DNA from: a virus
Length of the DNA stretch: 31,100 nucleotides
Virus record (IMG/VR): IMGVR_UViG_3300020192_000057
Coordinates: 1 to 31,100 of that record
Strand: one strand, 5' to 3'
The notes beneath the pieces were generated by a model. That model was not told where the DNA came from and searched no databases. It was given only the letters and a program-made list of their open reading frames with translations. Position 1 is the first letter of the stretch; each line of letters begins with the position of its first letter. Below are positions 1,992-20,428 of this stretch, in pieces. The position numbers and the translations under genes are program-made.

Positions 1992-3950
1992 ATGGACCGT
2001 GCATACGCGCTGATGAACTTCAAGGCGGTGAACGAGACCACCACCGAATGGGTGATCGAAGGCATGGCCTCGACCCCGACTGCCGATCGTATGGGCGACG
2101 AAGTCGATCCGATGGGCGCCAAGTTCAAGACCCCGATGCCGCTGCTTTGGCAGCACGACAGCCAGAAGCCGGTCGGCCGGGTGGAGTTTGCCAAGCCCAC
2201 AGCGAATGGCATTCCCTTCCGCGCGCACATCCCGAAGATCGCCGAAGCGGGCGTCCTGAAGGACCGCGTCGACGAGGCCGTGCAGTCGATCAAGTACCGC
2301 CTCGTCGCGGCCGTGTCGATTGGCTTCCGTGCCTTGAAAGATGGCATCGAGCAGCTGAAAGGCGGCGGCCTCAAGTTCACGTCTTGGGAGTGGCTGGAGC
2401 TCTCCCTGGTGACGATCCCGGCAAACGCCGAGGCGTCGATCACGTCCATCAAGTCTCTCGACAGCGCTCTGCTGGCCGCGTCAGGCCGAAAGCGAAGCGA
2501 TGTCCACCCCCCCGGCGCTTCGGGGACCAAGCAGCAGCCCGCCTCTGGCGGGTTTTCTTTTTCCCGAAGCCCGAAAGGCAACCCAATGCAAACCATTTCC
2601 CAACTGCGCGAAGAGCGCAACACGAAGGCCAACCGAGCGCAAGAGCTCGTCGACCTTCGCAAGGGCGAAAGCCGCCCGTTCACCCAGGAAGAGCGCGGCG
2701 AGTTCGACGCGATCAGCCAGGAGATCGAAGACCTCGACGACGAAATCCGCGTCAAGAACTTCCACACCACCAACGCATCGGCCGCCAGCGTCGTCGACGG
2801 CAAGTCGGCCGAGGGCGCCTCGCGCAGCCGCGGCGGCATCTCGTTCGTCCGCAAGTCGGATCCCGAGGACAAGTTCAAGGGCCAAGCCTTCGTTCGGAGC
2901 GTTATCGCGAAGGCGATGGCCATCATGAACCAGACCACGCCGTCGGCGATTGCCGAACATCGCTGGGGCAAGACCAATCCGCAGCTGGTCCAGTGGATCA
3001 AGGCCAACGAGGTCGCGGGCGGCGGAACCGGCTCCGGCGAGTGGGGCGCGGAGTTGGTCGCGATGGACGGCCGCTACAGCGGCGACTTTCTCGAGTTCCT
3101 CTATGGCGCGACTGCTTTCGACAAGTTGCCGTTCCGCGAGGTGCCGGCGAACATCACCATCAAGGGCCAGGACGGTGAGGCGACCGGCTACTGGGTCGGC
3201 GAGTCGAAGGCGATCCCGGTCACGAAGCCTGACTTCTCGACCGTCAACCTCACCCCGCTGAAGGTCGGCGCGCTGTCGGTCGTCTCCAACGACCTCATCC
3301 GCTACTCGAGCCCGGCTGCGGAAGCCCTCGTTGGCAACGCGCTCCGGGAAGCGAGCGCCAAGCGGATCGATCAAACGGTCTTCTCGACGAGCGCGGCTTC
3401 TGCCGGCGTATCGCCGGCTGGCCTGCTGAACGGTCTGACGGCGATCGCGACCACGGGCACGGATGAGGCCGCGGTTCGCGTGATGATCTCGGCACTGTAC
3501 GCGCCGTTCATCTCCGGCAAGAACGCGATGGGCCTGTATTTCGTCATGGGTCCGGCCCAGGCGAAGGCGATCTCGATGCTGGTCAACTCGCTCGGCCAGA
3601 CCTCCTTCCCGAGCATCAACGGGATGGGCGGTTCGCTCCTCGGTGACAACGTGGTCGTCGGCGACAACATCGATGGCAGCCACGTGATCTTGGTGAAGCC
3701 GTCCGAGATCTACAAGATCGGCGACACGGGCTTCGAGGTCTCGGTCTCGCGGGAAGCGACGATCGAGCAGCGCTCTGACCCGACCGGCGCGACCGATACG
3801 CCGGTGGGCATGAACGTCACCGGGATGACCTCGATGTTCCAGGAAGACAGCACGGCGATCAAGGTGACCCGCCACATCAACTTCGCCAAGCGGCGCAGCG
3901 ATGCGGTGGCCTTCACCGAGACGGCGGACTTCCAAGGCGTTTCGAGCTGA
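1992..3950 (+). CDS. Prohead protease fused to HK97-fold major capsid protein
   Basis: A single 652-codon frame encodes two head proteins. Residues 1 to about 165 form an S78-type prohead protease that matures the shell: His55 in the WQHD motif, Ser109 in AVSIGF and an acidic residue in WLELSL (about 136) fit the catalytic set. Residues 199-652 form an HK97-type major capsid protein with a charged helical delta/scaffold region (about 199-300) followed by the shell domain. The linker (166-198) is Pro/Gly/Ser-rich and is encoded by DNA that contains a terminator-like hairpin. An internal ATG at 2586 behind AAGG would give a stand-alone 454-residue capsid protein. Protease-capsid fusions are known in this family; whether both a fusion and free capsid protein are made is open. 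The ATG at 1992 follows AGGA. Confidence 0.93.
   Translation: MDRAYALMNFKAVNETTTEWVIEGMASTPTADRMGDEVDPMGAKFKTPMPLLWQHDSQKPVGRVEFAKPTANGIPFRAHIPKIAEAGVLKDRVDEAVQSIKYRLVAAVSIGFRALKDGIEQLKGGGLKFTSWEWLELSLVTIPANAEASITSIKSLDSALLAASGRKRSDVHPPGASGTKQQPASGGFSFSRSPKGNPMQTISQLREERNTKANRAQELVDLRKGESRPFTQEERGEFDAISQEIEDLDDEIRVKNFHTTNASAASVVDGKSAEGASRSRGGISFVRKSDPEDKFKGQAFVRSVIAKAMAIMNQTTPSAIAEHRWGKTNPQLVQWIKANEVAGGGTGSGEWGAELVAMDGRYSGDFLEFLYGATAFDKLPFREVPANITIKGQDGEATGYWVGESKAIPVTKPDFSTVNLTPLKVGALSVVSNDLIRYSSPAAEALVGNALREASAKRIDQTVFSTSAASAGVSPAGLLNGLTAIATTGTDEAAVRVMISALYAPFISGKNAMGLYFVMGPAQAKAISMLVNSLGQTSFPSINGMGGSLLGDNVVVGDNIDGSHVILVKPSEIYKIGDTGFEVSVSREATIEQRSDPTGATDTPVGMNVTGMTSMFQEDSTAIKVTRHINFAKRRSDAVAFTETADFQGVSS
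2536..2562 (+). terminator. Terminator-like hairpin inside the protease-capsid frame
   Basis: A CCCGCC/GGCGGG stem (2538-2543 with 2547-2552, three-base loop) extends by a G-U and an A-U pair and is followed by TTTTCTTTTT. In form it is a rho-independent terminator, yet it lies inside the fused reading frame, between the protease part and the internal ATG at 2586. It may partly terminate transcription, define an mRNA 5' or 3' end, or be a relic of a former intergenic space. The hairpin is seen; the function is inferred. Confidence 0.6.
2580..2588 (+). promoter_or_regulatory. Possible internal ribosome-binding site and start for capsid protein
   Basis: An AAAGGCA purine stretch (about 2574-2580) lies a few bases before an in-frame ATG at 2586. 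Starting here would yield a capsid protein whose first residues (MQTISQLREER) look like a natural N-terminus of an HK97-type capsid precursor. This would allow the capsid protein to be made in excess over the fused protease. Confidence 0.5.
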
Positions 3951-6206: not shown

Positions 6207-6611
6207 GTGAGCAAGTCAAACACCACCGAAAACGACTTCATGGTCTACACGTTCAACGCTACGGCGTTCCCGTGGGACGCGACGGCCAGCCTGCGGGTCC
6301 ATCTGCACACCGCCGACCCCGGCGAGGCCGGGACTAGCGCGACCAGCGCGGCGACGTACACCGACTATTTGCCCGTGACCGTGACCCGCAACGCCGGCGG
6401 CTGGACCGTCTCGGGCAACCAGGCGAGCAACGCCGCCTTGGTTCAGTTCCCGCAATGCACCGGCGGCTCGAACACCATCACCCACGTCAGCATCACACCC
6501 CTGGCAACGACGCAGATCCTGTACTCGGGGGCGCTGTCGTCCTCGTTGGCGGTGTCGTCGGGCATCCAGCCGCAGTTCGCCATCGGCGCGCTGACGATCA
6601 GCGAGGATTGA
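6207..6611 (+). CDS. Gp80-like putative virion decoration or fibre protein
   Basis: This 134-residue, Thr/Ser/Ala-rich protein has the pattern of the Gp80-like family of phage structural proteins. An N-terminal segment resembling 'LHTADPGEAG' is followed by a Tyr-Thr-Asp-Tyr strand, a beta-rich core, and a C-terminal end of the 'GIQPQFAIGALTI' kind. The 27505 gene contains two similar domains. It starts at GTG 6207 behind AAGGA (6194-6198); an in-frame ATG at 6240 is less likely because it lacks a ribosome-binding site. Its place between portal and connector suggests capsid decoration rather than tail fibre, but this is inference. Confidence 0.65.
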   Translation: MSKSNTTENDFMVYTFNATAFPWDATASLRVHLHTADPGEAGTSATSAATYTDYLPVTVTRNAGGWTVSGNQASNAALVQFPQCTGGSNTITHVSITPLATTQILYSGALSSSLAVSSGIQPQFAIGALTISED

Positions 6612-9402: not shown

Positions 9403-9690
9403 TTGAGCTGGCTAGGAGATTGGTTTGGTGACTGGTTCGGCCGATGGTATGGGTCGGGCGAAGATGCCGGCCCCTCGGCGTCTTTGCATGGGTCTAGCTC
9501 GGTCAGTGCGGTTCTTGTCGGTGTGCAAAACACGACGCCGCCGACCATCATCGGCGCAGGCTGGCGGCCCCAGCGCATCCCTATCGACCGTGGCCGGTTC
9601 CCGAGCCTGCGAACCATTCGAGACGAGGAAGACATCATCGTCGCGACAGTCATGGCCGCGATCCATGCGGGCATCCTGAAAGCCAAGTAA
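9403..9690 (+). CDS. Small Trp-rich hypothetical protein
   Basis: This 95-residue protein begins at TTG 9403, one base after the previous stop. Its N-terminus is a striking aromatic repeat, WLGDWFGDWFGRWYG (residues 3-17), followed by a Ser/Val-rich stretch, a 'TPPTIIGAGWRP' segment and a helical acidic-to-hydrophobic end. Its small size and Trp/Gly/Asp repeat suggest a short aromatic anchor or stacking motif, but no function is known to me. It overlaps the next gene at TAATG. No strong ribosome-binding site is visible, so coupling is likely. Confidence 0.6.
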   Translation: MSWLGDWFGDWFGRWYGSGEDAGPSASLHGSSSVSAVLVGVQNTTPPTIIGAGWRPQRIPIDRGRFPSLRTIRDEEDIIVATVMAAIHAGILKAK

Positions 9691-10844
9691 TGATCGAATA
9701 TTCAATGATGGCCGACGACCTGCTCCTCTCGGTGCGGGGCTTCGTCACGCGCAGTCTTGGGCCTTTGCTCGAGCGCGTGAAGGCGCTGGAGGAGCGACCG
9801 CTGATCCACGGGAAGAACGGCGCGGACGGCCTCAATGGCAAGGATGGCGAAGCAGGCTTGGCAGCAAGGGACGGCGCCGATGGCAGGGACGGGAAGTCGG
9901 TCAGCATCGACGAGGTGCGCGAGCTCGTGAAGCTGGCGACCGAGGCTGCATTCGCCGGAATGCCGAAGCCGAAGGACGGCATCGACGGAAAAGACGGCGC
10001 GCATGGCCAAGATGGCCAGCCCGGCTCGGCTGGCGAGAAGGGCGCGGCCGGCATCGACGGCAAGGATGGCGCGCCCGGAATCGAAGGTCAGAAGGGCCTC
10101 GACGGCAAGGCTGGAGTCGATGGTTCGCCGGGAGAAAAGGGTGCAGCCGGCATCGACGGGAAAAACGGAGGCGATGGCCTGAATGGCAAAGACGGCGCTC
10201 CGGGGATTCAAGGCAAGGACGGCGCCGATGCAGTAGACGGCAAGGACGGCGCTGACGGCCTCGCGGGCAAGGACGCAACCCCAATCGACGAGGATGCGCT
10301 GGTCGCCCGCATCGCCGAAGTGGCCGTGAAGCACATTCCGGTGCCCCGCGACGGCATCGACGGCAAGGACGCAGACGAAGAATCGATGATGGCCCGCGTG
10401 CTGAAGGCCATTCCTGCACCGAAGGATGGTGTCGACGGCAAGGACGCGGCGCCGATCGATCCCGAGCGAGTGCGCGATATGGTCAAGGCCGAAGTCGCCT
10501 CGATCCCTCGCCCGGAGAACGGCCGCGATGGCCGTGACGCAAAGGGCAAGGACGGGACCGACGGTCTGTCTATCGACGACTTCGACATCGAGCAGAAGGA
10601 CGACCGAACCATCGTCGTCTCGCTCCGCAACAAGGACAAGCAGGTTGCGCGCGAGATCAAGCTGAAGGGCCTGCCGATCGACCGCGGCGTTTACAAGTCT
10701 GGCGCTGCCTACCAAGAGGGCGACGGGATCACTTATGGCGGATCTTGGTGGCTAGCGCAGAAGGACACGAGCAACACGCCCGGCGATGCTTCCGGCGATT
10801 GGCGCCTGGCCGTCAAGCGGGGCCGCGACGGTAAAGACGCATGA
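9690..10844 (+). CDS. Collagen-like fibre protein with C-terminal carbohydrate-binding-like end
   Basis: This 384-residue protein has a short N-terminal helix (about 6-38) for trimerisation or attachment, collagen-like Gly-X-Y blocks (about 41-69 and 97-195, rich in GKDG and GIDG), and four amphipathic helix modules (about 71-93, 198-217, 229-243, 257-274), each followed by a P-x-P-(K/R/E)-(D/N)-G-x-D-G step. The last 50 residues (Y-x-G-x-x-Y near 335-341, G-GSWWLA near 350-356, a final D-W-R-L) resemble the small aromatic carbohydrate-binding domains found at the ends of phage collagen-like proteins. It is probably a trimeric head or tail fibre. The ATG at 9690 overlaps the upstream stop; an ATG pair at 9705 is an alternative start. 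Confidence 0.8.
   Translation: MIEYSMMADDLLLSVRGFVTRSLGPLLERVKALEERPLIHGKNGADGLNGKDGEAGLAARDGADGRDGKSVSIDEVRELVKLATEAAFAGMPKPKDGIDGKDGAHGQDGQPGSAGEKGAAGIDGKDGAPGIEGQKGLDGKAGVDGSPGEKGAAGIDGKNGGDGLNGKDGAPGIQGKDGADAVDGKDGADGLAGKDATPIDEDALVARIAEVAVKHIPVPRDGIDGKDADEESMMARVLKAIPAPKDGVDGKDAAPIDPERVRDMVKAEVASIPRPENGRDGRDAKGKDGTDGLSIDDFDIEQKDDRTIVVSLRNKDKQVAREIKLKGLPIDRGVYKSGAAYQEGDGITYGGSWWLAQKDTSNTPGDASGDWRLAVKRGRDGKDA
9975..10274 (+). repeat. Collagen-like triplet repeat region
   Basis: About 33 Gly-X-Y triplets, dominated by GKD, GAD, GID and GAP, form the longest repeat block in the window. At DNA level it gives a near-repetitive GGCAAGGACGGC pattern that could mimic direct repeats. It is coding and in frame throughout. 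Confidence 0.85.
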
Positions 10845-11560
10845 GCTACTACATCGACCCCATCTTCTGGCGGGCAAGGTACGTAGTCCCGCTGCCGCCC
10901 GGGATCAAGGTCATCTCGACCACGGCCGGGCCGATGATCTCGCTCGAGAAGCTGCGCCAACAGTGCGAGCTCGTGGCGATCGACGGCGACTCCGACGCCG
11001 ACTCACACCCGGACGACGAGTTGCTGATCGCCTACCTCGACGCCGCCATTGAGCACGCCGAGGACTTCACCGGCCTTGCGATCGCGCTGCGGACCTACGA
11101 GATGGCGCTGGACAGCTTCCCGTGGTCGAGCGCCTGGACATCTCGCGGCATCGAACTCCCGCGGCCGCCGTTGATTCGCATCGACAGCTTCTTCGCCACC
11201 GCCGCCGGCAGCGAGGGGGAGCTCGACGAAGGCGACGACTACCTCGTCGATGACTACCGCACCCCGGCGCGCATCGTTCCCGTGACGTCGTGGCCGAGCA
11301 TGACCCGGGCGACGAACGCGCTCAAGATTCGCTTTACGGCGGGCTACATGACCCCGGCCTATGAGGAGGCCTCGGACTTCTCGGCATCCGACTACGCGGG
11401 CGCGCAGCAACTGCCCGCGGCGATCCGGCAGGCGTTGCTCCTCATGGTGCGGCACTTCTGGGAGCATCGGAGCGATTCTGTCGACAAGACGCTGGCGACG
11501 ATCCCGAACGGCTTTAAGGATCTGCTCCGGCCGAAGAAGGTCATCTTGGGCATGGCGTGA
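10841..11560 (+). CDS. Head-tail connector protein (gp6-like)
   Basis: This 239-residue protein is expected to bind the portal ring and start the connector. The gp6-like pattern is seen after an unusual leader (1-30): a helical part with the segment LLIAYLDAAIEHAEDFTG (about 61-78), a strand and an 'ELPRPPLIRIDSF' segment (about 102-114) typical of the family, a 'IRFTAGY' strand (about 165-171), and 'LPAAIRQALLLMVRHFWEHR' helices near the end. The family is often shorter (about 100-190 residues), so the N-terminal 40 residues are extra. It overlaps the collagen-like gene by ATGA. Confidence 0.87.
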   Translation: MSYYIDPIFWRARYVVPLPPGIKVISTTAGPMISLEKLRQQCELVAIDGDSDADSHPDDELLIAYLDAAIEHAEDFTGLAIALRTYEMALDSFPWSSAWTSRGIELPRPPLIRIDSFFATAAGSEGELDEGDDYLVDDYRTPARIVPVTSWPSMTRATNALKIRFTAGYMTPAYEEASDFSASDYAGAQQLPAAIRQALLLMVRHFWEHRSDSVDKTLATIPNGFKDLLRPKKVILGMA

Positions 11561-11895
11561 TGGGCGAGCGTCGGCACTGGGTGACTTTCGAGAGCCCGGA
11601 GACGGAGATGGATTCGGACGGCGCCCAGGTCGATACGTGGGTTCCCGCGTTTCCGCTGAACCACCGGATGCCGTGCCAGGTCCGGGCGCTGTCGGGGCGC
11701 GAACTCTTCGCTGCGCAGGCGTCGCAATCGAAAGTTTCGACAGAGATCGTCACGCAGTACCGGCCAGGATTCAAGGCTTCCATGCGAGGCCGGCTTGGCG
11801 CGGAGGTGTTCAACATCGAGGCAGTGATCCTCGACCCGGAGAGCCGGAACCGCACGATCACGCTACGATGCAGCAGCGGGGTCAACTTGGGGTGA
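11560..11895 (+). CDS. Head closure / head-tail adaptor protein
   Basis: This 111-residue protein fits the head-tail joining family that closes the connector after packaging. It has a 'HWVTF' first strand, a 'W-x-PAFPL-x-x-RMPCQVRALSGRE' segment, a Gln/Ser helix, an 'IVTQYRPGFKASMRG' strand and a final 'VILDPESRNRTITLRC' strand pair. The start is ATG at 11560 sharing bases with the upstream stop (TGATG); GTG at 11557 is also in frame. Position directly after the connector supports the call. Confidence 0.85.
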   Translation: MGERRHWVTFESPETEMDSDGAQVDTWVPAFPLNHRMPCQVRALSGRELFAAQASQSKVSTEIVTQYRPGFKASMRGRLGAEVFNIEAVILDPESRNRTITLRCSSGVNLG

Positions 11896-12470
11896 AGTAC
11901 CCGGAGCGGCCGGCGTGGTCTGGCCGCACGGTGGTCTGCATCGCCAGCGGCCCGAGTCTCACGGCAGAGGACGTCGAGACGGTCCGGGAATCGAAACACC
12001 CGGTCATTGTCACGAACACGACCTTTCGCCTGACTCCGTGGGCCGACGTCGTGTTCGGAATGGACATGGCCTGGTGGAAGATGTACGGCAAGGAGGTTGC
12101 CGAGGTCTGCACGGGCCGGAGGATGTCGACCTCGCACGCCGCTAGAGCCTACGGAGCGGAGTCGCTGTGGCAGACGCCGTGGTTCCCGCAAGCGATGAAC
12201 TCGGGCGCGGCGAGCGTGGGGCTGGCGATGGCGTCTGGCGCGGCGAAGATCGTGCTGCTGGGCTTCGATTGCCAGAAGACAGGTGGCAAGACTCACCACC
12301 ATGGCGACCACCCGAAAGGGCTAGGTAACGGGGCATCGCTGAAGAAGTGGCCGAAGCACTTCGAGACTCTGGCGAAGGACGCGCAGAAACGAGACTGCAT
12401 CATCGTGAACGCAACCAGGGAAACCGCCCTGCGATGCTTTGAGCGAGTGCCGCTACAGCTGGCCCTATGA
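11892..12470 (+). CDS. MptE/DUF115-like Rossmann-fold protein, possible sugar transferase
   Basis: This 192-residue protein has a glycine motif, CIASGPSL (residues 16-23), right after the first strand, a second strand 'PVIVTNTTFRL', and a NSGAAS(V)GLA helix (about 103-111) followed by a 'IVLLGFDCQK' strand and a His-rich loop (about 134-140, with HHHGDHP). This pattern occurs in MptE/DUF115-like phage proteins, which are distant relatives of sialyltransferase-type folds; the reaction is unknown. The GTG at 11892 overlaps the head-closure stop; an in-frame ATG at 11868 is the alternative. It is the first gene of the sugar and methylation cassette. Confidence 0.7.
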   Translation: MKYPERPAWSGRTVVCIASGPSLTAEDVETVRESKHPVIVTNTTFRLTPWADVVFGMDMAWWKMYGKEVAEVCTGRRMSTSHAARAYGAESLWQTPWFPQAMNSGAASVGLAMASGAAKIVLLGFDCQKTGGKTHHHGDHPKGLGNGASLKKWPKHFETLAKDAQKRDCIIVNATRETALRCFERVPLQLAL

Positions 12471-13240
12471 GGCGGACGATTCGTGGCGGGACGGGGCTAG
12501 GGGACGCTCTCTACGTGCAGAGCGTGTGTCGGCATCTGGTGGAGAAGGGGCAATCGATCCGGGTCAATAGCGCATGGCCCGATGTGTTCCGGCCGCTCGG
12601 CGACAAGTGCGCGGTCGCGCCGTTCAGTCGCACAGCACAGGTCGTCGCGCACTACCCGTCCCGAAAGTGGGCGACCGATACGACGCAGTTCGAGGACTGC
12701 TGCATCACGGCCGGTGTGCCGAAGAACATCGACTTGCGGCTGGATTGGAAGCCGACGAATCAAACGCTGATCGACAGCATCGGATCGCGGCCGTTTCTCT
12801 GTGTCCAACTTCCGCGCACTCCGATGGGTCGCACGGATGGATTCGGCGCTGAACTGCTGCCGGACTGCAACGTGATCCAGAAGCTGATCGACAGGCTGCG
12901 GGAGAGGTTCTGCATCGTTCAGATCGGCTCCGGCCGGCCGTTGCACAAGTTCCACGGCATCGACGTAGATCTGGCCAACAAGACCACCGTATCGGACTTG
13001 CTCGATGTGGCGACCGCGGCCAGTGGGTTCCTCGGCTATGTGTCGTTCATCGTCCCGCTGGCTGAGTCGCTGTCAAAGCCTGCCCTGCTGGTCTGGTCGC
13101 GGCGAGGATTGAAGGCCGGTAGCCACTTCATCCGAGCGGTGACGCCGAAGAAGGTGTTGCACAAGCCGAGCTCGAAGTTCCTTTGGGACGACGCGACGGA
13201 ACAAGAGATACGGGAGGTGGCCGATGCGTTCATGCGATAG
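12467..13240 (+). CDS. Glycosyltransferase family 9-like protein
   Basis: This 257-residue protein resembles GT-B heptosyltransferase-type enzymes. The N-terminal GGTGLGDALY loop (residues 7-16) matches the acceptor-side motif of GT9, and the C-terminal half shows a nucleotide-sugar-like segment: a 'IVQIGSG' strand (about 149-155), then a small-residue region with D-L-L-D-V and a 'PLAESLSKPALLVWSRRG' stretch. It is shorter than cellular GT9 enzymes (about 330-350), and the usual D-S-G/H-x-A catalytic segment is altered, so the substrate and activity are uncertain. It overlaps both neighbours (ATGA at the start; 17 bases at the end), consistent with one coupled operon. Confidence 0.72.
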   Translation: MRRTIRGGTGLGDALYVQSVCRHLVEKGQSIRVNSAWPDVFRPLGDKCAVAPFSRTAQVVAHYPSRKWATDTTQFEDCCITAGVPKNIDLRLDWKPTNQTLIDSIGSRPFLCVQLPRTPMGRTDGFGAELLPDCNVIQKLIDRLRERFCIVQIGSGRPLHKFHGIDVDLANKTTVSDLLDVATAASGFLGYVSFIVPLAESLSKPALLVWSRRGLKAGSHFIRAVTPKKVLHKPSSKFLWDDATEQEIREVADAFMR

Positions 13241-13907
13241 CAGTCTCCTGCGCGAAACGTTCCACGGGAAACGTGTTGCCATTGTCGGCAGCGGCCCCGG
13301 CTCACTCGACAACGCGCCGGGTTTGGTGGATTCGCACGATGTCGTCGTTCGCGTGAACAACTACAAGACCGGCAAGGCTCAGGGCTACCGTTGCGATGTG
13401 TTCTACAGCTTCTTCGGCGGCTCGATCCTGAAGCCGGCCTTCGACCTGCAGCGCGACGGCGTGAAGCTCTGCATCTGCAAGTGCCCGAACTCGAAGTTCA
13501 TCGAGTCTGAATGGCACAGGAAGAACGGCAAGATGCTCGGGACGGACTTCCGCTACATCTACAAAGCGCGTGCCAACTGGTGGTTTTGCCCGACATACAT
13601 TCCGGACCGCGCGGAGTTCATGGAGGTCTTCGAGATGCTCGGCAAGCACATCCCGAGCACCGGCTTCTCGGCGTTGCTGGCTGTCCTCGCGCACGCGCCG
13701 GCCAGCATCTACCTGACGGGCTTCGACTTCTTCGCCTCACGCATTCACAACGTGAACGAGCCTTGGCGGCCGGGGAATCCGGATGACCCGATCGGGCATG
13801 CGCCGGAACGCGAAAGAGCGTGGCTTGCAGAACATTGCGACATGGTCACGATGGACGACAGGCTTACCGAAATCATGGAGGATGCGGGTGCAGTACTGGA
13901 CGATTGA
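13224..13907 (+). CDS. GT29-like (sialyltransferase-fold) glycosyltransferase
   Basis: This 227-residue protein shows the layout of GT29-type transferases. An L-motif-like segment (about 18-46) begins VAIVGSGPGSLDN and continues with VDSHDVVVRVNN; an S-motif-like segment (143-169) begins IPSTGFSALL and ends with YLTGFDFF; a His and a Glu (H192, E195) lie downstream, where the family carries its VS motif. In animals these enzymes move sialic acid from CMP-sialic acid; for phage and bacterial members the donor is generally not known. Transmembrane and signal segments are absent, so it would act in the cytoplasm. It overlaps the GT9-like gene and is followed directly by a methyltransferase. Confidence 0.75.
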   Translation: MRSCDSSLLRETFHGKRVAIVGSGPGSLDNAPGLVDSHDVVVRVNNYKTGKAQGYRCDVFYSFFGGSILKPAFDLQRDGVKLCICKCPNSKFIESEWHRKNGKMLGTDFRYIYKARANWWFCPTYIPDRAEFMEVFEMLGKHIPSTGFSALLAVLAHAPASIYLTGFDFFASRIHNVNEPWRPGNPDDPIGHAPERERAWLAEHCDMVTMDDRLTEIMEDAGAVLDD

Positions 13908-14454
13908 AATGGAAAAGCAGGTCGGGTTTCGACTCCAGACCTTGCTCGATAGCCCGCAGTTGCTGAGCGCCTATCGGCAGTTCGGAGGCCAGCCGTTTCG
14001 ACGCTCGAGCGTGTTCCATGGGCTCGAGGGCTTCTTGCGCGAGAACAACATCGCCGGCCGTCGTTGTTTCGAGATCGGCACATGGAATGGCCTCACCGCG
14101 GTCGTGCTGTCCCAGTTCTTCGCCGAAGTCGTGACCGTCGACATTGCACACAACGATCTGAAGCACGAGATCATCAAGCATCTCGGCATCACGAATATCC
14201 GATGCGTGGAAATCGACAGCAACGAAGACAAGGCGAGGGTCTTCGCTGACACGAAGTTCGATTTCGCGTACCTGGACGGAAATCACGCACAGGACACCGG
14301 GGGCGACTGGAAGCTGACGAAGGGCTGTGGCCGAGTTCTGTTTCACGAGGCGTGGCCGTTTCAAAAACCAGTTTGGGATCTGCTCCATTCGCTGCCAGAA
14401 GATGAGGTCGTCTGGGGCGGTGATGGTCTGGCGCTGTGGAGGCGGCAGACGTGA
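13888..14454 (+). CDS. Class I SAM-dependent methyltransferase (first copy)
   Basis: This 188-residue protein has the SAM-binding motif FEIGTWNG (about 61-68), an acidic end of strand 2 (VTVDIAH, about 82-88) and a FAYLDGNH segment (about 126-133), as in small-molecule or sugar O-methyltransferases of the Methyltransf_24 kind. Its core aligns with the product of 14939, indicating duplication. GTG at 13888 is preferred because GGAGG (13877-13881) lies six bases upstream; ATG at 13909 is an alternative. It overlaps the GT29-like gene. The substrate is unknown; a sugar hydroxyl is likely given the neighbours. Confidence 0.78.
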   Translation: MQYWTIEMEKQVGFRLQTLLDSPQLLSAYRQFGGQPFRRSSVFHGLEGFLRENNIAGRRCFEIGTWNGLTAVVLSQFFAEVVTVDIAHNDLKHEIIKHLGITNIRCVEIDSNEDKARVFADTKFDFAYLDGNHAQDTGGDWKLTKGCGRVLFHEAWPFQKPVWDLLHSLPEDEVVWGGDGLALWRRQT

Positions 14455-14942
14455 CCTGGCCGACCAGCCTCTACGAATACAAGGGACAGATGTTCCCCGA
14501 GTACCTCAAGACCGGCAACGCCTGCCAGTTCGTCACGCCGCTGGCCAAGGAGTTCTGCGTCGGCATTGGCCTCGACGTAGGGGCGGGCAAGTGGCCGCTG
14601 CCGGGAGCCATTCCTGTCGATGCCAAGGACGGCCGGGACGCGATGGAGTTGCCGCACGGGCAATACGACTACGTGTTCAGCAGCCACTGCCTCGAGCATC
14701 TGGCGAACCCCATCGCAGCCTTGGAGCACTGGCGAACCCGTCTACGGTCGGATGGTGTTCTGTTCCTGTCGCTGCCGCACCCGTCGATGACGTACTGGAA
14801 ACCTCAGCACTGCCGCAAGCATCTGCATTCGTGGCGGCCCGAGGAAATGGCCGAGATCGTCCGCGACCTCGGGTTCGTTGCTGTGATCCACAGCGAGCGG
14901 GATCTGTCTTGGTCGTTTCAGGTCGTCGGAAGGAAACCATGA
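14451..14942 (+). CDS. Methyltransferase, Methyltransf_11-like
   Basis: This 163-residue protein has a short SAM motif LDVGAGKWP (about 41-49), an acidic residue after strand 2 (PVDAKD), and the FSSHCLEHL segment (about 76-84) typical of type 11 methyltransferases, followed by 'LRSDGVLFLSLPHP'. It is at the short end for the fold. The start is taken at GTG 14451, which overlaps the upstream stop and has GGAGG (14438-14442) eight bases before it; GTG 14436 is possible but would place the start upstream of that site. It is the middle one of three consecutive methyltransferases. Confidence 0.78.
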   Translation: MTWPTSLYEYKGQMFPEYLKTGNACQFVTPLAKEFCVGIGLDVGAGKWPLPGAIPVDAKDGRDAMELPHGQYDYVFSSHCLEHLANPIAALEHWRTRLRSDGVLFLSLPHPSMTYWKPQHCRKHLHSWRPEEMAEIVRDLGFVAVIHSERDLSWSFQVVGRKP

Positions 14943-15490
14943 CCATCAAGGATCGAATCGTCGAACTGCACGGAGAGTCGTTTCTCCGCAAGAGCGCCCT
15001 GAACATTCGCGACGGCGAAGGCGTGTTCCGGGAATTTCTCGAAGGCGCCGGGTATCGCACGATCCTGGAGATCGGCACCTACAAGGGCATCTCCGCTGCA
15101 TGCATGGCGCAGTACTGCGAGAAGATCATCACGATCGATCTGGCGCACGGCAAGCTCGAGACGAACGGCGAGGATCACGATCGGCATGCATTCTGGGAAT
15201 CGCTCGGCATCGACAACATTGAGTTCCATGCGGTCGCCGACGATGAAGAGAAGGCGAAGCTGATCGCAGGGTTGGAGTTCGATCTAGCCTTCGTCGACGG
15301 CGCGCACGATACCGAGGGCGTTCGGCGCGACTTCGCTCTCGTCAAGCACTGCGGCGCGGTCCTGTTCCATGACTATGATGACAGCGGGCCGCAATTGGAG
15401 AAGCGCAACGCCGTCTATCGGTTCGTCAACAAGCTCCCGGCGCATCAGCTCCGGGTGCTCGACATCTTCGCGCTGTGGACCGATTCATAG
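14939..15490 (+). CDS. Class I SAM-dependent methyltransferase (second copy)
   Basis: This 183-residue protein carries LEIGTYKG (about 43-50), TIDLAHG (about 65-71) and an AFVDGAHD segment, then a 'CGAVLFHDY' strand. It matches the product of 13888 motif by motif, with the same IGT-x-x-G, D-(I/L)-AH and CG-VLFH features, so the two are paralogues separated by a different methyltransferase. It starts with ATG 14939 behind AAGGA and overlaps the stop before. A sugar O-methyltransferase role in the cassette is plausible; the substrate is unknown. Confidence 0.8.
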   Translation: MTIKDRIVELHGESFLRKSALNIRDGEGVFREFLEGAGYRTILEIGTYKGISAACMAQYCEKIITIDLAHGKLETNGEDHDRHAFWESLGIDNIEFHAVADDEEKAKLIAGLEFDLAFVDGAHDTEGVRRDFALVKHCGAVLFHDYDDSGPQLEKRNAVYRFVNKLPAHQLRVLDIFALWTDS

Positions 15491-16122
15491 CCTCGCTGCC
15501 GGCCGAGTCGGACGGCGACTTGATGCTGTGTCGCGACTTCGGCATCGCCTACCAGCAAGACAGGACGAACCTGTGCGCGTACGACGATGCCTACTACGAC
15601 AAGTGCAAGTCGTACGAAGGCCAGCAGATCGCGCAGGCCATCAACGCGGGGCGCGTGGCGCTGGTCAACAAGTACGTCGGCCTGGGCAAAGTGGTCGACG
15701 TAGGCATCGGCTCTGGCGAGTTCATCCGCCTGCGCCCGAACACCTGGGGCCACGACGTGAACCCCGCCGGCATCGAGTGGCTGAAGCGCAACGACCTCTG
15801 GGCGAAGAACCTGCAAGGCTTCGCCGGCGCCACGTTCTGGGACGTCCTGGAGCACGTCGAGACGCCGGAGGAATACCTGCAGCAGATTGGACTGCATGCC
15901 TTCGCCTTCGTGAGCATTCCCCTGTTCTACGCGCTGGGCGCGGTGCGGGCATCGAAGCATTACCGGCCGGGCGAGCACCTGCAGTATTTCACTGAGCAGG
16001 GCTTCATCGACTGGATGGAGCGCCACGGCTTTCGCCTCATGCAGATGCAGGACTTCGAGATCAGGGCGGGTCGAGAGTCGATCTACAGCTTCGCTTTCAG
16101 GCGGTACAGATGGCCGGTCTGA
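15475..16122 (+). CDS. Methyltransferase, Methyltransf_23-like
   Basis: This 215-residue protein has a SAM motif VVDVGIGSGEF (about 73-83), D94 in GHDVNP, the FWDVLEHV segment (about 121-128) and a C-terminal 'GEHLQYFTEQGFIDWMERHGF' region, all typical of type 23 methyltransferases acting on sugars or small molecules. The N-terminus has Cys/Tyr-rich features (CRDFGIAYQ; YDDAYYDKC) also seen in phage relatives. GTG 15475 overlaps the previous gene but lacks a clear ribosome-binding site; in-frame ATG 15523 is the alternative. It is the last gene of the cassette and overlaps the tail-completion gene. Confidence 0.8.
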   Translation: MDRFIASLPAESDGDLMLCRDFGIAYQQDRTNLCAYDDAYYDKCKSYEGQQIAQAINAGRVALVNKYVGLGKVVDVGIGSGEFIRLRPNTWGHDVNPAGIEWLKRNDLWAKNLQGFAGATFWDVLEHVETPEEYLQQIGLHAFAFVSIPLFYALGAVRASKHYRPGEHLQYFTEQGFIDWMERHGFRLMQMQDFEIRAGRESIYSFAFRRYRWPV

Positions 16123-16613
16123 AGATGGAAATGCAACTGCATGGGTTGACCGGCGTGCTCGAGACGCTGAAGTCGCTCCCCGCCGAGGTCGTCAGCAAAC
16201 GCGGCGGCCCGGTCAAGGCCGCACTGCGCAAGGGCGCGAACGTCATTCTCAAGGCCGAGAAAGCGAACCTTCGTGCGGTCATGGGGCACCGGACGAATGG
16301 CGAGCGCCAACTGTCCACCGGCCTGCTGTTGAAAAACCTCGTCGCCACCCGCGGCAAGCCGAGGGGCGTCAACGGCGAGCGGTACATCGTCCGCGTGAAG
16401 CGCAAGAACTATCCGCGCAAGGGAAAGAACGTCAGCACGGTCAAGGTCGCGCAGCTGCTCGAGTACGGCAGCAGCAAGCAACCGGCGGAGCCTTTCATCC
16501 GGCCGGCGTTCAACGCCAAGGCGGCTGAGGCGATCCGCACCATCGAGATCGAGCTCGTCAAGGGCGTCAAGAAGGTCGCGGCGAAGCTGGGCCAACAGAA
16601 CAAGGGGCGCTGA
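16110..16613 (+). CDS. HK97 gp10-like tail completion protein
   Basis: This 167-residue basic protein fits the HK97 gp10 family, which acts at the head-tail or tail-terminator junction. It opens with a 'LHGLTGVLETLKSLP' helix, then a 'K-ALRKGANVILKAEKANL' helix, a strand-rich middle with many Lys/Arg, the 'LLEYGSSKQPAEPFIRPAFNA' segment (about 120-140) that marks the family, and a C-terminal helix. ATG 16110 lies 12 bases inside the last methyltransferase. Its position resumes the structural order that the sugar and methylation cassette interrupted. Confidence 0.88.
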   Translation: MAGLKMEMQLHGLTGVLETLKSLPAEVVSKRGGPVKAALRKGANVILKAEKANLRAVMGHRTNGERQLSTGLLLKNLVATRGKPRGVNGERYIVRVKRKNYPRKGKNVSTVKVAQLLEYGSSKQPAEPFIRPAFNAKAAEAIRTIEIELVKGVKKVAAKLGQQNKGR

Positions 16614-16993
16614 TGCTTCCTCCGGTTTTCCAGGCGCTGAAGGCCTCTGCGGCGGTCAAGGCCATCGTCGGCAGCAACCCTCCCCGCGTCTATCGCCACG
16701 GCCGGGTGCCCGAGGGCACGCCAGAGCGGCCGATCATCGAACCCTTCGTCACTTGGTTCATGGTCTCGGGCGTGCCGGAGAACAACCTCAGCGACCCGCC
16801 GCCATGCGATCGCACGACGGTGCAAGTGGATTGCTGGCATCGCACGGATTCCGGCGTCGAGCTTCTGGCGACCGCGGTTCGCGACGCGCTCGAGGTCATC
16901 GGCGTAATGACCGCGACGCAGATCGACGACTTCGAAACCGAAACCAAGTTCTTTCGGATGTCGCTCCAGGTCGACGTCTTCATCAATCACTGA
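16613..16993 (+). CDS. Tail terminator / completion protein (DUF3168-like)
   Basis: This 126-residue protein fits the DUF3168 tail-completion family: a short helix (FQALKASAAVKAIVG), an 'RVYRHGRVPEGTP-PFV' segment, and strands including 'TVQVDCWHR' and the C-terminal 'FFRMSLQVDVFI'. Proteins of this type cap the tail tube and join it to the head. It starts with TGATG overlap, and a terminator-like hairpin follows its stop codon. Confidence 0.85.
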   Translation: MLPPVFQALKASAAVKAIVGSNPPRVYRHGRVPEGTPERPIIEPFVTWFMVSGVPENNLSDPPPCDRTTVQVDCWHRTDSGVELLATAVRDALEVIGVMTATQIDDFETETKFFRMSLQVDVFINH

Positions 16994-17016
16994 TCCTCTC
17001 CGTTTCCCCCACCACC

Positions 17017-17040
17017 GGCCCGCTGAATGCGGGCCTTTTT
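17017..17040 (+). terminator. Hairpin terminator before the tail tube gene
   Basis: A perfect 7-bp stem, GGCCCGC (17017-17023) with GCGGGCC (17029-17035), a five-base loop and TTTTT. It shares the GGCCCGC/GCGGGCC core with the hairpin after the capsid gene. The tail-tube ribosome-binding site (GAAGGA, 17045-17050) follows at once, so readthrough or a processed 5' end for the tube message is implied. Confidence 0.8.
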
Positions 17041-17056
17041 CATTGAAGGAAGCATC

Positions 17057-17557
17057 ATGGCTGTCATTCAAAACCAGTTCGAAACCAAGGGCACGCATCT
17101 CTACTTCATCGATGCCGTGACCACCACTGACCCCACTGTCACCAAGCTGACTTGCCCGACCGGTATCACCGGAATCGGCGGCGGCACGAAGGACAAGATC
17201 GACACCACCTGCCTCGATGAGACCGGTGCGTATCGGACCAACGTCGGCGGCTTTGCCGACCCCGCGGAACTCTCCGTTCCGTTCATTCTGTACAAAGGCG
17301 ACGGCTCGCACCAAGCCCTGTTCCTGTTGCGCGACTCCGGCGCGACGGTGAGCTGGATGCTTGGACTCAGCGACTCCATCGCCGTGCCGACGCTCGACAG
17401 CGACATGACCGCGCTCGTCACGCCGGCCGCCCGCACTACCTTCGCATTTTCCGGCTACGTCACGCAAGTGACATTGGACGCGACGATCAACGAAGTCATC
17501 CGCGGCACCCTCACTATCCAACCGACTGGCACGACGACCCCCTACTGGGCGTCGTGA
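17057..17557 (+). CDS. Major tail tube protein
   Basis: This 166-residue protein is expected to polymerise into the tail tube. It matches the lambda V-type tube family in size and pattern: an early 'GTHLYFID' strand, a 'GIGGGTKDKIDTTCLDETGA' segment (about 44-63) characteristic of the family, a 'FADPAELSVPF' strand and a C-terminal 'TNQVTLDATINEVIRGTLTIQPTG'-like segment. ATG 17057 is chosen for its GAAGGA site; the frame extends upstream only into the hairpin. It lies directly before the frameshifted chaperone genes, as expected. Confidence 0.9.
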   Translation: MAVIQNQFETKGTHLYFIDAVTTTDPTVTKLTCPTGITGIGGGTKDKIDTTCLDETGAYRTNVGGFADPAELSVPFILYKGDGSHQALFLLRDSGATVSWMLGLSDSIAVPTLDSDMTALVTPAARTTFAFSGYVTQVTLDATINEVIRGTLTIQPTGTTTPYWAS

Positions 17558-17901
17558 TGGACTGGCTGCTGACGCAGCCGGGCACGGTACGGGCTGAAAC
17601 ACGCCCATTCGGTGACGGCAAGGATCACACCTTCCACTTCAAGGCTCGCGCGCCGAACGAGATTGCTGCCCACTTCGGAGCAGTCCAGGCGCTGACCAAG
17701 GACGGCCAGACGGCCGAAGCCGCGGTCGCGGTGCAAAAGGAGCTCGCGCGATTCATCGCCGATTCCCTTTGCAACGAAGACGGCACGCCCATGCTCGACG
17801 CAAAGAAGGCCGAGCAGATCGCCCCGGTTCTGAAGAACGAACTGCGCGCGATCATCGTCGACGGATCCAGCAAGACCGTCTCCGAACTGGGAAACGTCTA
17901 G
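17557..17901 (+). CDS. Tail assembly chaperone G-like
   Basis: This 114-residue protein corresponds to lambda gpG, a chaperone that coats the tape measure protein before tube polymerisation and is not retained in the virion. It is recognised by position between tube and tape measure, small size, and the frameshift signal at its 3' end. Features include an N-terminal strand pair (FHFKARAP), an alanine-rich helix and a helical C-terminus. ATG 17557 overlaps the tube stop; GTG 17554 is also in frame. Most ribosomes should stop at TAG 17899-17901. Confidence 0.85.
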   Translation: MDWLLTQPGTVRAETRPFGDGKDHTFHFKARAPNEIAAHFGAVQALTKDGQTAEAAVAVQKELARFIADSLCNEDGTPMLDAKKAEQIAPVLKNELRAIIVDGSSKTVSELGNV

Positions 17902-18218
17902 CAGCCAAGGGCGAGGAATGGTTCTGGCACGTTCTCGCCCTCGCACTCGGCGGTCGCACGATCGCCGAGTGGAAAGCCGCAATGGCGGCCGACCCGGTGG
18001 AGTTCGAGAGCTGGAAGGCGTTCTACACGCTGCACCCCTTCGACGACCGCTCACGATTCCACCGGCCGGCGGCGCTGATGGCGTCCATGGTGGGCGGGAA
18101 CGAGGTCGGCGACCTGCTGGACTGGCTCGACCGCAAGCCCGCTCCAGAGGCGGGCTACAGCGACGTGGACCTGTCGTTCATGAAGGCGTTCGGCGTGAAA
18201 CCGCCGCGTAAGGACTGA
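17557..18218 (+). CDS. Tail assembly chaperone G-T fusion made by -1 frameshift
   Basis: About 220 residues: codons 17557-17895 in the G frame, then a step back of one base so reading continues CGT-CTA-GCA from 17895 to the stop at 18216-18218. The T part (about 107 residues, with a 'GEEWFWHVLALALGGRTIAEW' segment and a 'PFDDRSRFHRPAALMASMV' segment) has no own start codon near its beginning, as in lambda T. The G-T form links the chaperone to the tube protein and tape measure during assembly. Confidence 0.88.
17889..17895 (+). promoter_or_regulatory. Programmed -1 ribosomal frameshift slippery site
   Basis: GGGAAAC occurs in the correct register (G GGA AAC in the G frame), fits the X-XXY-YYZ rule, and lies two codons before the G stop. 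The lambda G/T site is GGGAAAG, so this is close to the canonical form. Confidence 0.9.
17908..17941 (+). promoter_or_regulatory. Hairpin that may stimulate the frameshift
   Basis: AGGGCGAG (17908-17915) pairs perfectly with CTCGCCCT (17934-17941), 8 bp with an 18-base loop, starting 12 bases after the slippery heptamer. The spacing is slightly longer than the usual 5-9 bases. The large loop could also pair downstream as a pseudoknot. Confidence 0.55.
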
Positions 18219-18220
18219 GC

Positions 18221-20428
18221 ATGGCAGCAGGCAGCATCACCGTCGATCTGTTGCTCAAGACGGGCACGTTCGAGACAGACACCAAGCGTGCCGGTCAGAA
18301 CCTCAGGCGGCTTCAGAAGGACGCCGAGGCGGTCGGCCGTGCTATCGGTGTCGCGTTCGCGGCTGCGGCCGTTGCGACGCTCGCCTTTGCCAAGAGCCAG
18401 ATCAACCAGCTCGACGCGCTGAACGACCTGTCCGACGCCACGGGCTCGACGGTCGAAAACCTGAGTGCGCTCGAGGACGTGGCCCGGCGCAATGGGCAGT
18501 CGCTCGACGATGTGACGGGAATCCTCGTCAAGTTCAATGCCGCCCTGAAGGAAACTGACGGCAAGAACGGGATCAGCCTCGCGCTGCAGTCGATCGGGCT
18601 GAGCGCGAAGGAACTGCAAAGCCTCGACCCGGCCGAAGCCCTGCGCCGCACTGCGGTCGCGCTCGCCGGATTCGCAGATGACGGCAACAAGGCGCGGATC
18701 GTTCAGGAACTGTTCGGCAAGTCCGTCAGGGAAGCCGGCCCATTCCTGAAAGACCTCGCGGAGCAGGGCAAGCTAAACGCGACGGTCACTACCGAGCAGG
18801 CGAAGGCGGCGGAGGAGTTCAACAAGCAGATATTCGGCCTGCAGAAGAACGTCGCCGACGCTGCCAGGGCCATCCTCGGTGACTTGATCCCGGCGATCAA
18901 TGCGGTCTTCCGGGACGTTCGCGGCGGATCGTTTTTCGACAACATCTTCGGCACGCTCGGGCTCGGCACGTCGACTGCGGCCGAGGCGCTGGTCAAGAAC
19001 TCGACCCGGATCAACGACTCGATTGCCGAAACCACCCGGTCAATTGCCAAGCTCAAGGAATCGGCCGGCAACAGCGGGAACATCTATGCTGAGAAGGGCA
19101 TTGCCGATCTAGAAAAGAAGCTCGTCGGCCTGCGCACCGAAGCCGCGGCCGCCGAAAAGCAGATGATCCTGCTGTCGGGGTTGAACAAGGGCTCCGGTCC
19201 TGCGAAGCCGGATGCGCCGAAACTTGGCCTCCCCCCGCTTCCGAAGCCGGCGAGCGGCACGGATCCCTTCGTGGCCCTCATCAAGAGCGCACGCGAGATG
19301 CTGGCGGTCGCCAAGGCATCCACCGAGGCCGAGGGCGATCTAAGCCAGGCGCAGACGGCGCGGGTGAAGATTCAGGCCGACCTGACCGCCGGCACGCTCA
19401 AGCTGACGAAGCCGCAGAAGGAACTCCTGTTCCTGACGCTCGAGCAGGCCGACGCCTATCAGCGCGAGGGCGAACTGCAGAAGCGATCAACGCAGGCGAC
19501 CATCGATGCATTCTCGGCGCGAGAGAGCTTCCTGCAGCAGCAGAAGGCCGTCACTGATTCCTTGCTCGACGAGGTAGTCGCCGCCCGCCAGCAGGCTACG
19601 CAGTTCGGGGCAACCGCGGCCGCCATCGAGGCGCAGGCGATTGCCAAGAATCGGGCGGTCGCAGCATCCAAGGAACTGCTCGCCATCGCCCGTGAGGAAC
19701 GGGACGAACTTGACCCCATCGCGGCCGAGTACCGCAAGCAGGCGGCGGCCATCAGAGACGCAGCCAAGGCGCGCGAGGAACTGATCGCCAAGCAGAACCT
19801 GCTCCTGAACGATCCGACCGCGGGCGCCGAGCAGGCGGTCAAGGACTACCTCGAGGCCATCAGCAAGGCCGGGCTTGCGACGCATGACGCCATATCCAAC
19901 GCGCTGGCCTCGCTCGAGGACTTGACCGTCGAAGCCTTGCTAGGCGGCGACATCAAGTCGGCCGCGAAGAGTCTGGTGAATCAACTCATCAGCGAGTTCT
20001 ATCGGTTGCAGGTCGTCCGGCCTTTGCTCGCGTCGATCTTCGGCGGCGGCGGGGGCGGTGGACTGGCGGCGCTCCTGAAACTGTTCGGCGGCGGACAGAG
20101 CAATCTGCAATTGGGCTCGACGACGATCACGCCTCAGCTGGTCGGCGAGTTCGCCACGGGCACGCCCTACGTTCCGAAGACGGGTCTCGCGCTGGTCCAC
20201 GAGGGCGAGCGCATCACGCCGCGGGCGCAAAACACGGCCGGCTCCGGCGGCACTGTCGTCGAGGTTCACAACTACTCCGGCGCCACCGTGCGCGAAGAGT
20301 CGAGCCAGCGCGGCGACAAGAAGCTGACCCGTCTCATCATCGGCGAGATCGCCCGTGATTCGCGCAGCGGTGGCGTGACTCGTCAAGCAACCCGGGAGGC
20401 GGTCGGCCCGAGACCGCGCAGGGGGTGA
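18221..20428 (+). CDS. Tape measure protein
   Basis: This 735-residue protein sets tail length and is expected to pass into the host envelope at infection. It has the usual layout: a basic helical N-terminus (1-36), an Ala-rich hydrophobic segment (about 40-57), long helical and coiled-coil stretches with heptad-like Leu/Ala/Glu patterns (roughly 170-600), a glycine run (about 607-614), and the lambda H-like C-terminal segment with 'FATGTPYVPKTGLALVHEGE' and a basic tail. Using about 1.5 angstrom per residue, a general rule for these proteins, tail length would be near 110 nm. The start ATG 18221 follows the T stop by two bases. Confidence 0.93.
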   Translation: MAAGSITVDLLLKTGTFETDTKRAGQNLRRLQKDAEAVGRAIGVAFAAAAVATLAFAKSQINQLDALNDLSDATGSTVENLSALEDVARRNGQSLDDVTGILVKFNAALKETDGKNGISLALQSIGLSAKELQSLDPAEALRRTAVALAGFADDGNKARIVQELFGKSVREAGPFLKDLAEQGKLNATVTTEQAKAAEEFNKQIFGLQKNVADAARAILGDLIPAINAVFRDVRGGSFFDNIFGTLGLGTSTAAEALVKNSTRINDSIAETTRSIAKLKESAGNSGNIYAEKGIADLEKKLVGLRTEAAAAEKQMILLSGLNKGSGPAKPDAPKLGLPPLPKPASGTDPFVALIKSAREMLAVAKASTEAEGDLSQAQTARVKIQADLTAGTLKLTKPQKELLFLTLEQADAYQREGELQKRSTQATIDAFSARESFLQQQKAVTDSLLDEVVAARQQATQFGATAAAIEAQAIAKNRAVAASKELLAIAREERDELDPIAAEYRKQAAAIRDAAKAREELIAKQNLLLNDPTAGAEQAVKDYLEAISKAGLATHDAISNALASLEDLTVEALLGGDIKSAAKSLVNQLISEFYRLQVVRPLLASIFGGGGGGGLAALLKLFGGGQSNLQLGSTTITPQLVGEFATGTPYVPKTGLALVHEGERITPRAQNTAGSGGTVVEVHNYSGATVREESSQRGDKKLTRLIIGEIARDSRSGGVTRQATREAVGPRPRRG

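Follow-up and report, generated by a model that had tools for sequence, protein, structure and literature searches.

Why should a phage carry genes resembling those for sugar transfer and methylation among the genes that join its head to its tail? We addressed this question in a window of 31,100 nucleotides, the whole stretch analysed from the viral record IMGVR_UViG_3300020192_000057, in which an earlier note had placed a seven-gene cassette between a head-closure gene and a gp10-like gene. All seven ORFs were recovered at that place, on the + strand at 11892-16122, between Hc1 and the HK97-gp10-like neck gene. The features of the region are as follows:

9690..10844, + strand: collagen-like protein, upstream of the neck genes (PF01391, E=4e-18)
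11557..11895, + strand: Hc1 head-closure protein, left border of the cassette (PF05521, E=9e-19; phrog_25, E=2e-18)
11892..12470, + strand: GTa, MptE/DUF115-like protein with a predicted sialyltransferase fold, 192 aa, GTG start, 4-nt overlap with Hc1 (phrog_4603)
12467..13240, + strand: GTb, putative GT-B/GT9-like glycosyltransferase, 257 aa (distant homology to D3/PAJU2 proteins, conserved order)
13224..13907, + strand: GTc, predicted sialyltransferase-fold enzyme, 227 aa, with GT29/GT42-like conserved positions
13909..14454, + strand: MT1, predicted class I SAM methyltransferase, Methyltransf_24 (PF13578, E=2e-5, 26.1 bits)
14436..14942, + strand: MT2, predicted class I SAM methyltransferase, Methyltransf_23 (PF13489, E=1e-12)
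14939..15490, + strand: MT3, predicted class I SAM methyltransferase, Methyltransf_24 (PF13578, E=2e-11, above cut-off)
15475..16122, + strand: MT4, predicted class I SAM methyltransferase, invariant last gene of the cassette (phrog_6564, E=8e-51; PF13489, E=1e-11)
16110..16613, + strand: Ne1, HK97 gp10-like neck protein, right border of the cassette (phrog_5, E=3e-12)

The junctions within the cassette overlap by 4, 17, 19, 4 and 16 nt, with a single 1-nt gap just before MT1. A scan of positions 9600-18300 returned no sigma-70-like promoter (0 versus 1.3 in shuffles) and only one strong + strand hairpin-T site, at 17017, past the tail terminator gene. The overlaps of 4-19 nt and the lack of such a promoter in this interval bear out the proposal that these are coupled genes of the late operon. 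The structural block encloses several co-directional glycosyltransferase and methyltransferase genes, as in a glycan module embedded among virion genes. No clear membrane segment was recognised in any of the seven proteins (highest 19-residue hydropathy 1.71).

Matches to the Methyltransf_23 and Methyltransf_24 profiles place MT1-MT4 among the predicted class I SAM methyltransferases: MT2 and MT4 pass the cut-off of the former and MT3 that of the latter, which MT1 misses by 0.2 bits (26.1 vs 26.3). MT1 and MT3 are paralogues with 35% identity, and the cyanophage homologues of MT2 adjoin genes for a heptose kinase/adenylyltransferase and a glycosyltransferase.

The predicted structure of GTc (AF2 model, pLDDT 90.6) indicates a sialyltransferase fold: its best Foldseek matches are GT42/GT29 sialyltransferases (TM about 0.5), and named sialyltransferases make up 41 of the first 42 PDB matches, with E-values from 1e-5. 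At the sequence level, GTc falls below the cut-off of the GT29 family PF00777 (E=0.024, 14.5 bits vs 23); 10 of 18 homologues match this family at E<=0.1, all sub-threshold, the best with E=0.002. Seven positions (G22, P25, N30, R43, H175, H192 and E197) are invariant across 79 sequences and are candidate catalytic positions that may correspond to sialylmotifs.

GTa matches phrog_4603, named 'alpha-2,3-sialyltransferase' (E=2e-51), and is homologous to D3 orf7, PAJU2 ORF10 and P1 pmgO, while its score against the MptE-like family PF01973 stays under the curated cut-off (19.9 bits vs 34.6). Its model (AF2, pLDDT 89.6) also suggests a sialyltransferase fold, less firmly than for GTc, being equally close in Foldseek to CstII (1ro8, E=4e-4) and to 8sd5 (E=3e-4), the pterin pyrophosphokinase HPPK of M. 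jannaschii. When the GTa and GTc profiles were compared with PDB sequences, nothing convincing emerged, the best for GTa being CstII at E about 0.3. The predicted sialyltransferase-fold enzymes would be an addition to the phage repertoire.

For GTb, a profile HMM detects D3 orf12 (E=3e-18) and PAJU2 ORF11 (E=3e-15), and a relative of these was named a GT9 heptosyltransferase by its depositor. As GTb itself matches no Pfam or NCBIfam family, and Pfam, PF01075 included, is also blank across 19 GTb members, the label 'GT9-like' is weakly based. Neither PDB nor host GT9 profiles lent support to a GT9 assignment; against the host's own heptosyltransferases the best alignment had E=0.003 and a probability of 11%. 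The gene classes first proposed are supported overall, with the GT9 label of GTb the weak member.

We then turn to the relatives, in which gene order was examined across 88 environmental contigs. GTb immediately precedes GTc in 75 of 75 cases and GTa immediately precedes GTb in 60 of 61; MT4 is the last gene, downstream of GTc, in 67 of 67, and variation is confined to the middle methyltransferases. The dN/dS ratios of the seven genes, 0.15-0.47, indicate purifying selection throughout. Because the order is near-invariant and selection acts on every gene, the arrangement is not due to chance: the cassette is a real, selected module.

GTc relatives are encoded in 101 IMG/VR stretches. GTc, GTb and MT1 find no match among 50,697 phage records, and cellular homologues of GTc amount to two loci in the genome collection, both phage-like (one of them in the only genome with GTc among 369 class relatives), along with two weak matches (25%) on Paracoccus plasmids. 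Nor do the genes behave as common single-gene cargo of unrelated operons, since the core genes remain grouped even in a jumbo phage of an unrelated lineage and the MT2 relatives of cyanophages lie in sugar operons. The same region in relatives carries additional genes for Methyltransf_24, FkbM and TylF O-methyltransferases, a sulfotransferase, GT2, GT8 and GT9 glycosyltransferases and a hexapeptide acyltransferase. Methyltransferases, sulfotransferases, acyltransferases and glycosyltransferases of these kinds are the usual source of diversity in glycan capping.

The cassette is probably a late glycan-decoration module of a tailed phage that makes a methylated glycan on the virion. As it recurs with its gene order kept in dozens of relatives and, reduced to three genes, in well-known Pseudomonas phages, a methylated sugar coat of the virion is the most likely product. 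The conserved order, the selection and the gene content of relatives support virion decoration, one of the two roles suggested in the earlier note, as the leading idea. We infer the enzymatic activities, the sugar donors and the virion as target as follows. GTa, GTb and GTc would use activated sugars supplied by the infected cell to assemble a short glycan, for which one or several virion proteins of the same operon are the most likely acceptors, with transfer in the cytoplasm ahead of virion assembly; MT1-MT4 would then O-methylate it using SAM. GTa-GTb-MT4 is the widely shared core, with GTc and the variable middle methyltransferases as diversifying additions, so that related phages would bear differently capped glycans. 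Such a coat may benefit the phage by shielding it from binding factors or by changing its adsorption.

An alternative is that, late in infection, the enzymes alter the host surface (the LPS core or the capsule), which might for instance prevent superinfection or the re-adsorption of released virions. GT9-like enzymes and CMP-sugar transferases usually act on the LPS core or oligosaccharides, soluble peripheral enzymes could work at the inner membrane, and the MT2 relatives adjoining heptose genes in cyanophages fit as well. However, the cassette sits in the late virion block with no promoter of its own, and such a block, unlike serotype-converting genes, is normally silent in lysogens; moreover, the cassette lacks a flippase, a polymerase and a membrane transferase. 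A change of the host surface therefore appears unlikely, and less likely than decoration of the virion.

Within virion decoration, the donors might be precursors of the host LPS inner core: GTc, and perhaps GTa, would use CMP-Kdo rather than CMP-sialic acid, and GTb would use ADP-heptose, in which case the virion would bear a capped mimic of the LPS core. We regard this version as speculative and rather unlikely. It fits with no nucleotide-sugar synthesis gene being recognised in the cassettes, with the heptose genes beside MT2 relatives and with one host MAG, possibly incomplete, that encodes KdsB (next to LpxK) as well as GT9 enzymes but no NeuB. Against its simple form, a second cassette phage was binned, with some uncertainty, in an Anaerolineaceae MAG that encodes NeuB and lacks GT9.

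As to the substrate, the collagen-like protein, encoded two genes upstream of Hc1, would be a specific candidate, in the manner of Bacillus BclA, which carries methylated glycans. Its G-X-Y tracts tend to be longer in cassette-bearing relatives (median 28 vs 12.5 triplets, p=0.08). Yet four relatives with the cassette (L011, L012, L020 and L114) have a collagen-like protein free of any G-X-Y tract, D3-like lineages lack the gene, and 23 of 45 portal-anchored contigs have the gene without the cassette. The special link first suggested is thus not supported: most relatives encode the protein whether or not they carry the cassette, and several cassette-bearing ones lack it. This co-occurrence pattern rules it out as an obligatory partner and leaves it a possible, non-obligatory substrate, with a role as the specific one quite improbable. 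The Ser/Thr content of virion proteins showed no convincing shift (smallest p=0.02 in several tests, uncorrected and free of tree control), and with differences this small it was discarded as a clue to the substrate.

Finally, modification of phage DNA or a nucleotide precursor as anti-restriction hypermodification, in place of a protein glycan, is very improbable: glycosylated DNA occurs in phages and a sub-region of MT3 matches a phrog named DNA methyltransferase (E=7e-6), but no base-modification synthesis gene was recognised within the 31-kb fragment, the cassette methyltransferases match no DNA-methyltransferase Pfam family, and what relatives carry at this place are genes for sugar-type O-methyltransferases, sulfotransferases and acyltransferases.

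Virion decoration also accords with several known systems. D3, PAJU2 and Psp6 each have the core trio within their head/neck block. PAJU2 (ORF10-12) and D3 (orf7, orf12, orf13) have homologous GTa, GTb-like and MT4 genes in the same order in the neck region, with GTb distant (profile E about 1e-15 to 1e-18), and this core is already annotated 'alpha-2,3-sialyltransferase ... methyltransferase'. In PAJU2, the trio falls between Hc1 and the neck protein, with the fused protease-capsid layout of the cassette phage, whereas in D3 GTa precedes the adaptor gene. Both have three genes rather than seven, lacking GTc and MT1-3. With this smaller version at the same site, and that many environmental stretches with GTc relatives, the place and kind of the cassette are less uncommon than had been supposed. 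In the literature searched, no function was found reported for this trio; the virions documented there as glycosylated are those of mycobacteriophages, and none of those papers describes the D3/PAJU2 kind. A free-standing GTa-GTb-MT4 trio occurs in the unrelated Klebsiella jumbo phage Eowyn.

P1 pmgO is homologous to GTa (32% identity, hhalign 99.96%), and its run pmgO-pmgP-ppp-pmgQ includes an annotated glycosyltransferase, pmgQ; P1 differs in lacking MT4 and GTb and in keeping the pmg genes in a separate late operon. That pmgO, pmgP and pmgQ are not needed for lytic growth (PMC10695390) is what one would expect if they served decoration and not assembly. The cyanophages S-T4 and Sf-CH8 have an MT2 homologue (39-42% identity) within a sugar-modification operon; unlike the cassette, their islands carry heptose and nucleotidyltransferase genes of their own, and GTa, GTb, GTc and MT4 were not detected among the S-T4 genes tested.

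A functional parallel comes from Corndog and the cluster O mycobacteriophages, where, as here, an O-methyltransferase (gp35) and tandem glycosyltransferases (gp36-38) are set in the virion block. In Corndog, the O-methyltransferase and three transferases lie between the portal and protease genes (PMC4351075) instead of in the neck, the hosts are actinobacterial, and mycobacteriophages within the 50,697 phage records offer no match to GTb, GTc or MT1. Enzymes of this kind in cluster O are reported to modify the capsid and tail tube (PMC11600133, citing Freeman 2023), and the enzymes themselves were not found in virions (PMC4351075, PMC11600133). The neck locus of a large group of environmental phages would hold a glycan module that is conserved, under selection and diversifying; with its three-gene core in the laboratory phages D3 and PAJU2, and a P1 relative as well, glycosylation of virions can be tested directly in tractable systems. 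The locus is best read as a variable glycan-decoration site that would act on virion proteins, comparable in function to the Corndog set.

On this 31.1-kb IMG/VR virus fragment, the siphovirus late block has genes for terminase, a fused protease-capsid protein, portal, a collagen-like protein, adaptor and head closure ahead of the cassette, and for a neck protein, tail terminator, tail tube, tape measure, tail tip and endolysin after it. The cassette (11892–16122, + strand) comprises three glycosyltransferase-like genes, GTa, GTb and GTc, followed by four SAM methyltransferase genes, MT1 to MT4. The earlier note had set these seven genes between the head-closure gene and the gp10-like neck gene, and this placement is correct, with neighboring genes overlapping or abutting. 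Its further remark that no promoter is visible also held, as a search for an internal promoter-like site in the cassette found none; the earliest strong + strand hairpin-T site lies beyond the tail terminator gene. The G+C content of the cassette is about 59–63% versus mostly 63–68% in the flanks, a drop that fits an acquired module.

Several features of the surrounding late block are seen in the same stretch. A single ORF (1992–3950) encodes the protease fused to the major capsid protein, as is likewise the case in PAJU2. The tail assembly chaperone (17554–17901) is overlapped by a downstream frame with tail-protein similarity (17769–18218), an arrangement that matches the expectation for a programmed frameshift. 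Gp80 ("podophage GP4 fiber I") domains were detected in two proteins (6207–6611, E = 3e-17; 27505–28368, E = 5e-56) that are widely separated within this one siphovirus late block.

Comparison with environmental relatives establishes that the seven-gene module is real, conserved and under selection. IMG/VR scans anchored on MT4 (473 relatives) and GTc (101 relatives), with 80 of each kept, were combined with earlier scans and with GTDB and phage loci to give 95 non-redundant loci, or 88 without the named phages. A scan anchored in this way presupposes that its anchor gene is present but leaves order and place free. The conservation of gene order, which the earlier note had proposed as a check, is borne out: GTb lies directly 5' of GTc in 75/75 cases, GTa precedes GTb in 60 of 61, and MT4 is downstream of GTc in all 67, the only recognized genes intervening between the latter two being cassette genes. 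The middle methyltransferases vary, with 0, 1, 2 or 3 of them in 15, 21, 26 and 5 contigs, respectively. Close relatives are among the contigs, so none of these order and number counts represents independent events. Two layouts were observed: in the fused protease-capsid lineage the cassette follows the adaptor and head-closure genes, and in a D3-like lineage it lies between the capsid and adaptor genes. The cassette genes show dN/dS values of 0.15–0.47 against their homologs.

Among named phages, the GTa–GTb–MT4 core is carried by D3, PAJU2, Psp6, Mulvp2 and the Klebsiella phage Eowyn. In the last of these, a jumbo phage, the three genes form an isolated trio (L251:4512–6597) with opposite-strand genes on either side. 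Across 50,697 phage records, GTb, GTc and MT1 had zero matches and MT3 a single partial one; MT2 has matches in cyanophages, where it adjoins heptose kinase/adenylyltransferase and glycosyltransferase genes. In a portal-anchored control set, at least one of GTa, GTb and GTc was present in 20 of 45 contigs, an upper estimate because a contig qualified either by having 6 kb of downstream sequence or by carrying a cassette gene; the site is thus occupied often, not always. Sampling 48 unassigned ORFs of the region recovered methyltransferases (Methyltransf_24, FkbM, TylF), sulfotransferases, GT2, GT8 and GT9 glycosyltransferases and hexapeptide acyltransferases, along with capsid proteins and homing-endonuclease motifs.

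The transferase genes differ in how closely they can be tied to known families. GTa matches phrog_4603, its MptE-like match being below the cut-off, and its structure model is near the Methanocaldococcus jannaschii pterin pyrophosphokinase HPPK and the sialyltransferase CstII alike. Pfam and NCBIfam searches returned no family for GTb, which is homologous to D3 orf12 and PAJU2 ORF11; a depositor named one relative of these GT9, and on our own reading GTb looks GT-B-like. In one relative, a diverged tandem copy (28% identity; L003:4388–5140) adjoins GTb. GTc is well modeled, with a predicted sialyltransferase fold and candidate active-site positions that are invariant across 79 sequences; its score against the GT29 profile is formally below the cut-off. 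The GTa profile aligns with that of GTc (hhalign 94%). Among the methyltransferases, MT1 and MT3 are paralogs sharing 35% identity. In four relatives, MT4 carries an additional methyltransferase domain fused at its C-terminal end (L010:10683–11822, L021:6746–7885, L022:3867–5006 and L024:11564–12727), with PF13489 detected in two stretches of the first.

The combination of transferases and capping enzymes, placement in a late virion operon and variable ends argues for a cassette that would put a glycan on the virion, a reading drawn from gene content and context in which we infer activity, donor, acceptor and benefit alike. The earlier note had linked the cassette to the collagen-like protein, which, in a co-occurrence test as acceptor, proved not to be an obligatory partner. 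The C-terminal part of this protein (9690–10844) is conserved in PAJU2 ORF7, which is devoid of a G-X-Y tract; hence, an older protein of the neck region may have gained the collagen repeat by insertion.

As nucleotide-sugar synthesis genes were not recognized in the cassettes, the donors should be supplied by the host. One betaproteobacterial MAG, possibly incomplete, contains a cassette locus (L027) and has KdsB, which by our reading of the ORFs adjoins LpxK and Adk, and GT9 heptosyltransferases; NeuB was not found in it. This would favor CMP-Kdo and ADP-heptose as donors, an assignment we consider improbable. A second MAG (Anaerolineaceae, with uncertain binning) has NeuB and lacks GT9.

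The presence of cassette relatives in P1, D3 and PAJU2 makes virion glycosylation testable in these phages; in P1, the GTa-type genes are dispensable (PMC10695390). The cassette is an expanded variant of the three-gene block of D3 and PAJU2. For the Corndog set, phage virion glycosylation is reported to proceed from genes inside the structural block (PMC4351075, PMC11600133). The function proposed for the cassette would be comparable to that of these mycobacteriophage virion-glycosylation genes.
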